NCBI RefSeq assembly: GCF_004116465.1
Contig: NZ_PDJV01000009.1
Span: 62,001 to 126,000 of the forward strand
Direction: 5' to 3'
Source of the DNA: Arcobacter sp. F2176
Lineage (GTDB): Bacteria; Campylobacterota; Campylobacteria; Campylobacterales; Arcobacteraceae
DNA length: 64,000 nt
The notes beneath the pieces are model-generated. The model had not been told where the DNA came from, did no database searches, and saw only the letters and a list, made by a program, of their open reading frames with translations. Made by a program: the position numbers and the translations under genes. Below are positions 7 to 53,308 of this stretch, in pieces (position 1 is the first letter of the stretch; each line of letters begins with the position of its first letter).

Positions 7-91
7 GCGGATGTGGTGAAATTGGTATACACGCCAGACTTAGGATCTGGTGCCGCAAGGTGTGAAGGTTCAAGTCCTTTCATCCGCACCA
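7..91 (+). tRNA. tRNA-Leu (anticodon TAG)
   Basis: An 85-nt class II tRNA. The acceptor arms GCGGATG (7-13) and CATCCGC (81-87) pair perfectly and are followed by discriminator A and an encoded CCA (89-91). The anticodon stem CCAGA/TCTGG encloses the loop CTTAGGA, giving anticodon TAG at 41-43, which reads CUN leucine codons. The long variable arm expected of tRNA-Leu and the T-loop GTTCAAGTC are visible. Confidence 0.97.
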
Positions 92-188: not shown

Positions 189-265
<77 letters not shown>

Positions 266-1081: not shown

Positions 1082-1178
1082 AATAATTTTCTTAACAGAA
1101 CCCCGTCTTATTGTAGCTTAACCTAGTTTTTGTTAGTTTGTTAGGGTAGGTGACAATTATTTTTAAAAGGAGCTAGTT

Positions 1179-2384
1179 ATTAGTTTAGAAAAAAAGAAAA
1201 AACTCACGATAAAAAATGTATTCAAGGTTTTTGGAGATAAACCTAAAAAAGCACTAGAAATGCTCAAAAATGGTCTTTCAAAAGAAGAGATTTTTGAAAA
1301 AACAAATATGACTATTGGTGTTCAAGATGCAAGTTTTGAAATCAATGAAGGCGAAATATTTGTAATCATGGGACTATCAGGTTCAGGAAAATCAACACTA
1401 GTAAGACTTTTAAATAGACTTATTGAGCCAACTTCAGGTCAGATATTCATTGATGAAACTGACATAACAAATTTAAATGACAAAGAATTGATTGATATAC
1501 GACGAAATAAAATATCAATGGTATTCCAATCTTTTGCACTAATGCCACATATGAACATTATAGATAATGCGTCATTTGGGCTAGAATTAAGTGGAATTAG
1601 TAAAGAAGATAGATACAAAAAAGCACAAGCAGCATTAGATCAAGTTGGATTATCACATCATGCTTTATCTTATCCTGATGAGTTAAGTGGTGGTATGCAA
1701 CAAAGAGTTGGTTTAGCAAGAGGTTTAGCAAATGATCCAGATATTATGCTAATGGATGAAGCTTTTTCAGCCCTTGACCCACTTATAAGAACTGAGATGC
1801 AAGATGAACTTCTAACGCTACAAAGTGAACACCAAAGAACGATTGTCTTTATTTCCCATGATTTAGATGAAGCAATTAGAATCGGTGATAGAATTGCAAT
1901 CATGCAAAATGGTGAGATATCTCAAGTGGGAACACCTGAAGAGATTATTAATAACCCTGCAAACGATTATGTAAAATCATTCTTTAAAGGCGTTGATGTG
2001 ACAACAGTTTTAACTGCATCACATATCGCTAAAAAAAGTTATCCTACAATTATAAAAAAAGATGGTTTTGGAATTAACTCTGCAATTCAATATATAAATG
2101 ATTATGATTTTGATTTTGCATATTATCTTACAAAAGATAATAAATACTTAGGAATACTTACTCTTGAAGCTTTAAAAGAACAGAAAAAAATAAATGGAAA
2201 TCTTGAAGACTCTTTGATAAAACAAGAAGTTGTAAATGAAAATGATTCTATTTCAGATTTTATAAATATTATTGCAGAATCGGCTTTTCCTCTTGCAGTT
2301 ATTGCTGAGAATGGCAAATATAAAGGGGTCATTTCAAAACGAACTCTATTAAAAACAATTGATGAAGGAGCAATAAATGGCTAA
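1179..2384 (+). CDS. proV: Glycine betaine/proline ABC transporter ATPase
   Basis: This is the ATP-binding subunit of an osmoprotectant importer. The Walker A motif is GLSGSGKST, the signature LSGGMQQR, and the Walker B region [12 protein letters not shown]. The C-terminal ~110 residues form a CBS-like regulatory region, as in E. coli ProV. The first in-frame ATG is at 1260 and has no SD. Family homology ([13 protein letters not shown]) continues upstream of it to a point where no ATG, GTG or TTG exists. AAGGAG at 1167-1172 is followed six bases later by ATT at 1179, which would give 401 residues, matching the usual ProV length of about 400. I therefore place the start at ATT 1179 and give 1260 as the conservative alternative. 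The gene overlaps proW by 8 nt. Confidence 0.9.
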
Positions 2385-3402
2385 TGATCCATGGGGAAAT
2401 GCCTCAACGGCACAAGCAGATAAAGCATCGAGTGTTGATTGGTCGCATGTTGCCCCTGACTCAACTCCCCTTCCATCTTTTGATGTAAGAAATCCATTTG
2501 ACCATAGTATTATTCCTTTTGATTCTTGGGTAAATGATGGGATTAATTGGACAGTAGAGAACTTTAGAGAATTCTTTTTATCTGCAAAAGCACCCGTTGA
2601 TGTGATTTTGAGATTTATAGAAACTTTTTTACAATCTCTTTCACCTTATGTAGTGATTGGATTTTTTGTTTTATTAGCTTTACAAGTATCTAGTAAAAAA
2701 ATGGCACTTGGAACTTTTCTTTCACTTGCATTTATAGGGTTTATTGGGGCTTGGGATGCTAGTATGACTACTTTGGCATTGGTTATTACTTCAGTATTAT
2801 TTTCAGTTCTCATTGGCTTACCACTTGGAATATGGAGTGCAAAAAGTGATATGGTAGAAAAAATATTAAGACCTATTTTAGATGGTATGCAGACAACACC
2901 TGCCTTTGTATATTTAATACCTATTGTTATGTTATTTGGAATAGGAAATGTTCCAGGTGTAATAGTAACTATTATTTTTGCTTTACCACCACTTATTAGA
3001 CTTACAAATTTAGGAATTAGACAAGTGCCAGCTGATTTGATTGAAGCTTCTAGATCATTTGGGGCAAGTTCGTCTCAAATGCTTTTTAAAGTACAACTTC
3101 CAGTTGCTATGCCTACTATTATGGCAGGAGTTAATCAGACTTTAATGCTTTCATTATCTATGGTTGTAATTGCTTCTATGATTGCAGTTGGAGGATTAGG
3201 TCAAATGGTTCTAAGAGGTATTGGAAGACTTGATATTGGTCTTGCAGCTGTTGGTGGTATAGGAATAGTTATCCTAGCAGTAATACTAGATAGAATAACT
3301 CAAGAAATGGGTAAAAAAGATAAAAAGAAAAAAAATAAATGGTATGAACAAGGACCAGTTGGTTTAGTTTATAATTTAATAAATAAGGAGAAAAAGATAT
3401 GA
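2377..3402 (+). CDS. proW: Glycine betaine/proline ABC transporter permease
   Basis: This is the membrane subunit of the betaine importer. It has a hydrophilic N-terminal extension of about 75 residues ([13 protein letters not shown]...) like that of ProW, then several transmembrane helices. The BPD-transporter coupling loop [20 protein letters not shown] carries the conserved EAA-type motif that docks on the ATPase. The 341-aa length is near that of E. coli ProW. Its start overlaps the end of proV and its stop overlaps the start of proX by 4 nt, so the three genes are translationally coupled. Confidence 0.95.
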
Positions 3403-4367
3403 AGAAAATATTAATTAGTTTAATGGCTATTTTTTTAACATCAAGTTTGTTTGGTGCTAAAGTTACATTTTTAAAGACAAGTATTGCAGAAGAAGGTTTT
3501 CAAATGTATATTGCTGCTGATGCAGTAAAAAAATTAGGTTATGATGTAGAAATTACAAATGATGTTAGTTATGAAGTTGCTTATCAAACAATTGCTCAAA
3601 ATGCAAAAAATAAAGATGCTTATATTATGGCAGCAGCATGGGTTCCCCTTCATGATGAAAAAATAAAAGGTGCTGGAGGAAGTGAAAAAATTGCTGTTAT
3701 TGGAGCATATATTAGAAATTGTGCTCAAGGTTATTTAATAGATAAAAAAACAGCAGATAAATACAATATCAAATATATCAATGATTTAAAAGATCCCAAA
3801 ATAGCAAAACTATTTGATTCAAATGGTGATGGAAAAGCTGATTTATCAGGGTGTGATGCTGGTTGGGGTTGTGAAAAAGTAATTGAGTACCAATTAGATG
3901 CATATAAATTAAGAGATACAATCACACATAATCAAGGGCAATATGCTTCAATCATAACAGATACAATAGCAAGATATAAAAGTGGAAAACCAATTTTATA
4001 TTATACTTGGACTCCATATTGGGTAAGTGGGAAATTAGTTCCTGGTAAAGATACTGTATTTTTACAAGTAACTCATTCAGCTCATCCTGTAACAAAATCT
4101 ACAAAGCTTCCAAATGGTGCTGATTATGGATTTAATGTAAATACTCAAAAATTTGCAGCAAATGCATCTTTACTTAAAGAACATAAAGATATTGCTAAAT
4201 TATTAGAAATAATGAAATTAGATGTAAATGATGTAAGTGGTGAGAATATGCTTATGGCACAAGGTCAAAATAAAGAAGCTGATATTAAAAGACATGCTCA
4301 AATGTGGCTTAAAAGTAATGCTGACAAAATAAATAGCTGGGTAGCAGAAGCTAAAAAAGCTAAATAA
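3399..4367 (+). CDS. proX: Glycine betaine-binding periplasmic protein
   Basis: This is the substrate-binding subunit of the ProVWX importer. Residues 1-20 ([20 protein letters not shown]) form a Sec signal peptide. The mature protein is an OpuAC-type binding protein with multiple tryptophans ([26 protein letters not shown]) able to form the aromatic cage for the quaternary ammonium group. The two Cys residues in [10 protein letters not shown] are close enough to form a disulfide. It is the last gene of the operon and overlaps proW by 4 nt. Confidence 0.94.
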
Positions 4368-52609: not shown

Positions 52610-53308
52610 TCAGTCTTTTTTCGTAAATTTTAACCATTGGTTCAAAAAATCATCTCTTTTTAGTATAATAGAGCCTAAATCAAGCTTATATTGCAAACAT
52701 GCATGACCTAAATTCCAAAACTCATAGTTCTCTTTTTCAAGTAGTTGTCCTAAAAGAACTAATTGCAGTTTACCATAATTATTGTACTTTTTATCTCTAC
52801 TTGAAAACCCACTTAGACTTGTATACACTTTGCCAACTTTATACCCGATTTCACCTGCAATTAATGTATCATTCTTGCTATCATATAATTCAAAAGTCAA
52901 TAATTCAAAATTCTCATGCTTATTAGAAAATATATCTAAAAGCATATTTTTATAATCTTCATTTATCCATGAATCTTTGTGAAATTGATTTATTTTTTCT
53001 ATAATTTGATTTATATCTTTATTTTTGACAAATAAATAAGTATTCTTTTTTAATAACTTTTTTATTTTTTTACTTATATGAAGATTTTCAAAGTACAAAA
53101 CGGCATATTCAAACTGAAGTTCTGGAAGTAAATAGCTTTTATTGTTTGCTAAAGTAGCAGTAGTGCTAATAAAACCTGCTTGGGCTAACTTTATATATAA
53201 AGAAGGAGAAAAGTGCTCACAGGCATAGTAATTCTCTTTCATATTTGGATAAATATGATTTCTTAATATTTGTTCATTGGAAATTATTTCCTCATCTATT
53301 AGATAAAT
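52610..53308 (-). CDS. Leucyl/phenylalanyl-tRNA-protein-transferase-like (GNAT fold)
   Basis: The conserved block IAGEIGYKVGKVYTSLSGF, GKLQLVLLGQLLEKEN and FWNLGHACLQYKLDLGS resembles the Aat leucyl/phenylalanyl-tRNA-protein transferase family, which adds N-degron residues to proteins. The first in-frame ATG (53242) has no SD. Coding-like sequence (YLIDEEIISNEQILRNHIYP) continues upstream, with no ATG/GTG/TTG before the in-frame stop. AAAAGGA at 53322-53316 precedes two adjacent ATT codons (53311 and 53308). I place the start at 53308, giving about 232 aa, near the family size. The family call is moderate. Confidence 0.6.
   Translation of the reverse strand: MYLIDEEIISNEQILRNHIYPNMKENYYACEHFSPSLYIKLAQAGFISTTATLANNKSYLLPELQFEYAVLYFENLHISKKIKKLLKKNTYLFVKNKDINQIIEKINQFHKDSWINEDYKNMLLDIFSNKHENFELLTFELYDSKNDTLIAGEIGYKVGKVYTSLSGFSSRDKKYNNYGKLQLVLLGQLLEKENYEFWNLGHACLQYKLDLGSIILKRDDFLNQWLKFTKKD

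Follow-up and report, generated by a model that had tools for sequence, protein, structure and literature searches.

The window, a stretch of 64,000 nucleotides from Arcobacter sp. F2176 that we analysed as a whole, carries near its beginning two tRNA genes and three consecutive open reading frames on the forward strand (Table 1). The first frame, proV, codes for the ATPase component of a glycine betaine/proline ABC importer, a system for uptake of the salt protectant glycine betaine; the frames adjoining it overlap and have the sizes expected of permease and binding-protein genes. The 3' end of proV overlaps proW by 8 nt, and proW overlaps proX by 4 nt (ATGA). In profile searches, the 401-residue ProV scored 533 bits against NF007480 (curated cut-off 444) and 472.8 bits against TIGR01186 (curated cut-off 326.6), with an ABC ATPase domain (PF00005) at residues 49–196 and a CBS domain (PF00571) at residues 351–394. 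It thus resembles the ProV/OpuAA proteins (NF007480, TIGR01186, PDB 7ahc) over nearly its full sequence, in its CBS domain and in the overlap with the next gene, whereas the ProV/OpuAA members that we examined outside the clade described below start with ATG. One of the two tRNA genes, a tRNA-Met(cat), was called an initiator from the three G-C pairs below its anticodon loop, a hallmark of that tRNA; this probable initiator gene lies 0.9 kb 5' of the AUU-start proV.

Between the in-frame TAA and the first ATG of the frame, at 1260, the window contains no ATG, GTG or TTG in the proV frame. It does contain AAGGAG at 1167–1172, followed by a CTAGTT spacer and an ATT at 1179–1181, and translation from this ATT to the stop codon at 2382–2384 yields the 401-residue product. 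An earlier note on this DNA, which proposed the ATT as the start of proV, had described the stop, the AAGGAG six bases before the ATT and the length of the product, all of which we recovered on re-reading the window. Its figure of 27 codons holds for the distance from the ATT to ATG 1260; the distance from the stop to that ATG, for which the note gave it, is 31 codons.

Table 1. Coordinates of the features discussed here, in the window unless another locus is named.
Feature	Position	Strand	Remarks
tRNA-Leu (tag)	7–91		
tRNA-Met (CAT), read as initiator	189–265	+	three G-C pairs below anticodon loop
In-frame TAA 5' of proV	1164–1166	+	
Shine-Dalgarno sequence (SD), AAAAGGAG	1165–1172	+	6 bases 5' of ATT
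ATT, probable start codon of proV	1179–1181	+	from SD spacing and clade-wide codon comparison
First in-frame ATG of proV	1260–1262	+	SD absent 5' of it
proV, 401 aa	1179–2384	+	glycine betaine/proline ABC importer ATPase, C-terminal CBS domain
proW, permease	2377–3402	+	ATG start; named from gene order and sequence
proX, substrate-binding protein	3399–4367	+	named from gene order and sequence
aat-like gene	52613–53308	-	PF03588, 1.2e-14; AAAAGGA then ATT ATT; no NTG before codon 26
MerR-type regulator	L236:148–504	-	
MerR-type regulator	L230:2596–2931		
MerR-type regulator	G000:C20:34543–34890		

Start codons of related proV genes

With a cut-off of E ≤ 1e-90, 21 of the 397 genomes in the class and 29 of the 104 in the family had a ProV match; we read the family as Arcobacteraceae, with Halarcobacter and Arcobacter. 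These matches, a set of nine Campylobacterota loci and one further locus (L174), after removal of eight duplicates present as one record in two collections, gave 41 distinct Campylobacterota proV loci. For comparison outside the phylum we used 71 proV loci, 69 of them with the anchor motif; translations of the two that lack this motif (L083, L110) carry a methionine at the expected place.

A non-canonical start stands 3' of the SD in 36 of the 41 loci, which belong to Arcobacteraceae, some Sulfurospirillaceae and one further family. Read by hand, the codon is ATT in 18 loci, ATC in 15, ATA in two and GTC in one. An ATT, ATC or ATA lies exactly 5–7 nt 3' of GGAG or its equivalent in 32 of the 36 and 4–9 nt after the SD in 33, the additional locus (L135) having its ATT at 9 nt; in the other three (ATC in L122 and L146, GTC in L145), a 5-nt spacing depends on accepting AAGGGG as a wobble SD. 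No ATG, GTG or TTG occurs 3–14 nt after the SD in any of the 36, and in 20 of them, L174 included, the frame holds no NTG whatsoever from the upstream stop to the conserved block. Since the distance from the start to this block ranges from 11 to 15 codons among the loci, the odd codon is more than a conserved isoleucine. The window's genus includes a single-contig genome (G001) with the same SD and ATT and a ProV that is 97% identical; its third genome yielded no ProV at the search level used. In L145, the proV of genome G412, the GTC replaces the ATC of close relatives and is the same triplet as the proven start of Streptomyces sigR.

Canonical starts are found outside this group. All five loci of one genus (g35; L125–L129) in family f10, which includes Sulfurospirillum arcachonense, have an ATG 5 nt after the SD, and outside the phylum an ATG lies 5–20 codons 5' of the conserved block in 69 of 69 loci with the anchor motif. 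The earlier note had named an alignment with relatives as the check on its proposal, and this alignment bears the proposal out: not one of the clade's 36 distinct loci has an ATG at the start site, and homologues outside the clade do. Six relatives (L033, L111, L112, L132, L134, L137) contain an in-frame ATG within the SD itself (ATGGAG), L133 has one just 5' of the SD, and L116 has a TTG in the SD. These seven ATGs could be usable as starts in those loci, and gene finders may well choose the six within the SD.

Other non-canonical starts and the region upstream of proV

The rarity of such starts was assessed in 381 open reading frames of the window's genome. The 464 kb surveyed combine the window with 340 kb from contig 1 and 60 kb from contig 9, and the pattern sought was an SD followed at 5–7 nt by ATT, ATC or ATA (ATH) with no NTG for at least eight codons. 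Only two frames fit, proV and the aat-like gene, so we rejected a free use of AUU, AUC and AUA starts across the lineage. Ten other triplet classes gave zero or one frame each in the same survey, and the first SD-backed NTG codons of the set were 123 ATG, 21 TTG and nine GTG. The aat-like gene is a candidate second start of this kind, less conserved than that of proV. All three genomes in the genus retain its ATT ATT, and an ATC stands 3' of the SD in L179 and L183; among the 30 of its 71 matches that we read, seven lack any NTG and 23 have one.

Upstream of the proV SD we noticed a dyad, TACAT-N5-ATGTA, in 27 of the 35 loci with AUU, AUC or AUA starts (for instance L111, L114 and L032). We counted 45 copies where 1.5 would be expected, and 13 cases are tandems with a 22-bp period; the dyad was found at proV in none of the five g35 loci, none of 69 outside the phylum and not in the window's genus. 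A search of eight genomes returned similar tandem sites before genes read as ectA-ectB (L229, L235, L236) and, in L230, close to a radical-SAM gene that we take for a lysine aminomutase. Dyad matches with three mismatches carry little weight, since a backwards-pattern control also matched in four of these eight genomes. A MerR-type regulator (PF13411) is encoded in 16 of 20 genomes and lies near proVWX in several; it is absent from four g7 and g35 genomes, whose proV lacks the dyad, and present in others without a proV dyad, including the window's own. The dyad is likely an operator, and with the regulator it suggests a putative osmoprotectant regulon, on which the AUU finding does not rely.

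Origin, selection and alternative readings of the start

To place the odd starts we used a tree of 65 proteins, which includes 25 of the 71 loci outside the Campylobacterota; L174 was excluded, its match covering only residues 3–372 within a longer open frame. One branch with support of 100/100 separates odd-start from ATG sequences, and on this tree the odd-start proV group has a single origin. The ATG genus g35 falls among the proV sequences of other phyla, which suggests a separate acquisition of its gene. The five start-codon states need 12 changes on the tree, at least 11 of them among ATT, ATC, ATA and GTC, and no change from an odd codon to NTG occurs on it. For the first 21 codons of the conserved block, pN/pS is 0.247, and for the 21 that follow it is 0.342; judged by these ratios, purifying selection acts on the N-terminal codons. 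The DNA further upstream has diverged, with an ungapped difference of 0.64, and the two observations together argue that the stretch 5' of ATG 1260 is translated protein.

These data bear directly on where translation of the window's proV could otherwise begin. ATG 1260 is the first canonical codon of the frame, and most relatives have an NTG codon near the same place; a start there would give a protein of 374 residues with a non-protein region upstream. We consider this very improbable, since no SD precedes the codon, the N-terminal codons are under selection, homologues of the ATG type begin 5' of the conserved block, and ProV would lose its conserved N-terminal strand. Both PDB 7ahc and NF007480 cover the N-terminal block: the alignment to 7ahc opens at residue 8, and that to NF007480 opens there with profile position 4, which places the expected start at about residue 5, a position near the ATT and well upstream of residue 28. 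It is equally improbable that a canonical codon in or before the SD, or a frameshift from an upstream frame, supplies the start, as the ATG or TTG triplets of the eight loci named above might suggest. By eye, none of those ATGs is preceded by an SD and no upstream frame common to all loci is seen; a canonical start upstream is impossible in 20 of the 36 loci, and in the window it is barred by the TAA and thus excluded, unless frameshifting occurs. An error of sequencing or assembly that removed an ATG might be imagined in a genome of 98 contigs, but the single-contig genome has the same ATT and SD, and another 34 loci carry a codon of the same class, leaving this explanation next to no probability. 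Given the strong and well-spaced SD, the lack of a canonical alternative, the selected N-terminus and a geometry kept in 36 of 36 loci, translation of proV very probably begins at AUU 1179, as read from comparative sequence data.

A different question is whether the AUU start, though real, is a neutral relic, which arose once in an ancestor and has since drifted among AUU, AUC and AUA with the help of a strong SD. The single origin on the tree fits this reading, and passages of PMC5622118 report stronger SDs at non-AUG starts. The missing AUG would also be expected from mutation alone: in the same genes, 13% of changes at fourfold sites go to G, and finding no G among ten changes at the third base of the start has a neutral P of ~0.24, so that the record of codon changes is by itself no proof of selection against AUG. 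Against neutrality, the same passages of PMC5622118 describe switches from GUG or UUG to AUG that outnumber the reverse in 36 genome groups, with two switches to AUU reconstructed among ~66,000 AUG and GUG starts. At such rates, a weak start kept in at least two families is unusual. Moreover, in these genomes the aat-like gene alternates between ATH and NTG. The comparative argument from retention of the proV codon is the stronger one: weak starts elsewhere reportedly move to AUG more often than AUG gives way to them, and the aat-like gene varies. We take the neutral reading seriously but incline against it.

A possible brake on proVWX translation

Initiation at AUU 1179 would require no special decoding, given the CAT anticodon of the tRNA read as initiator: an ordinary CAU initiator tRNA would decode AUU or AUC with a third-base mismatch. 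According to PMC4611024, IF3 discriminates against AUU, AUC and AUA and not against triplets ending in G. In the in vitro fMet initiation experiments described in PMC10158994, with AUU and a CAU anticodon, more IF3 led to less full-length product. The AUU and AUC of proV belong to this discriminated class, and their pairing with a strong SD would therefore make initiation slow and IF3-sensitive. With each of the three genes overlapping the next, this single weak start may restrain the whole operon and set the level of betaine uptake. The proV/proW overlap is present in all 35 loci with AUU, AUC or AUA starts, and equally where proV has an ATG (5 of 5 g35 loci, 67 of 69 outside the phylum), so that coupling is general, is not peculiar to the odd-start clade and forms no part of the novelty. 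We also looked for a sequestering RNA structure in the 75 nt 5' of the conserved block. Folding there is weak in the odd-start clade (mean -4.6 kcal/mol; g35, -10.9; loci outside the phylum, -6.8), which argues that a hairpin is not the cause of the weak start.

Noncanonical starts with regulatory roles provide two points of comparison. The infC gene, which encodes IF3, starts with AUU and is autoregulated, and E. coli pcnB also has an AUU start. As in infC, the proV AUU lies behind a good SD and is of a codon class subject to IF3. However, infC encodes IF3 itself, and its start codon in these relatives is TTG (all 21 Campylobacterales genomes read, loci L148–L168), the odd start sitting on proV instead; the comparison with infC drawn in the earlier note thus does not carry over to this order as far as infC's own start is concerned, although finding the gene indicates that IF3 is present. 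Passages of PMC5472188, which also mention the noncanonical start of infC, describe the GTC start of Streptomyces sigR, which IF3 represses. By that account, sigR resembles proV in that a strong SD precedes a start other than NTG, which is conserved within a lineage, and in a misleading canonical triplet inside the SD, which is GTG in sigR and ATG in six proV relatives. The same passages present sigR as a sigma factor gene conserved in one genus, its start proven by N-terminal sequencing and mutants, whereas the proV start is read from sequence. proV, unlike sigR, encodes a transporter ATPase, uses AUU or AUC and spans more than one family.

Taken as a whole, an AUU start well supported by the sequence together with a putative brake on proVWX is, in our judgement, a highly probable account of this locus. 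For a lasting translational brake at the proV start in its own right we lean only slightly in favour, and a release of this brake by signals such as osmotic state or growth rate appears unlikely. Similarly doubtful is the idea that the AUU or AUC start acts as a physiological switch, with IF3 and ionic conditions setting the acceptance of the mismatched codon. If such a switch operated, translation of proVWX would track the osmotic and growth state of the cell, amounting to an osmosensor that needs neither a riboswitch nor an RNA structure.

Our search of the open-licence PMC literature found no earlier report of an AUU or AUC start of proV. Gene finders restricted to NTG codons are unable to place such starts, and ProV in these genomes is likely annotated short (from 1260 in the window) or from a false upstream ATG. 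Conserved start codons beyond ATG, GTG and TTG are known in very few bacterial genes, and a transport operon whose AUU or AUC start is stable beyond a single family would offer a natural system in which to study what weak starts are for.
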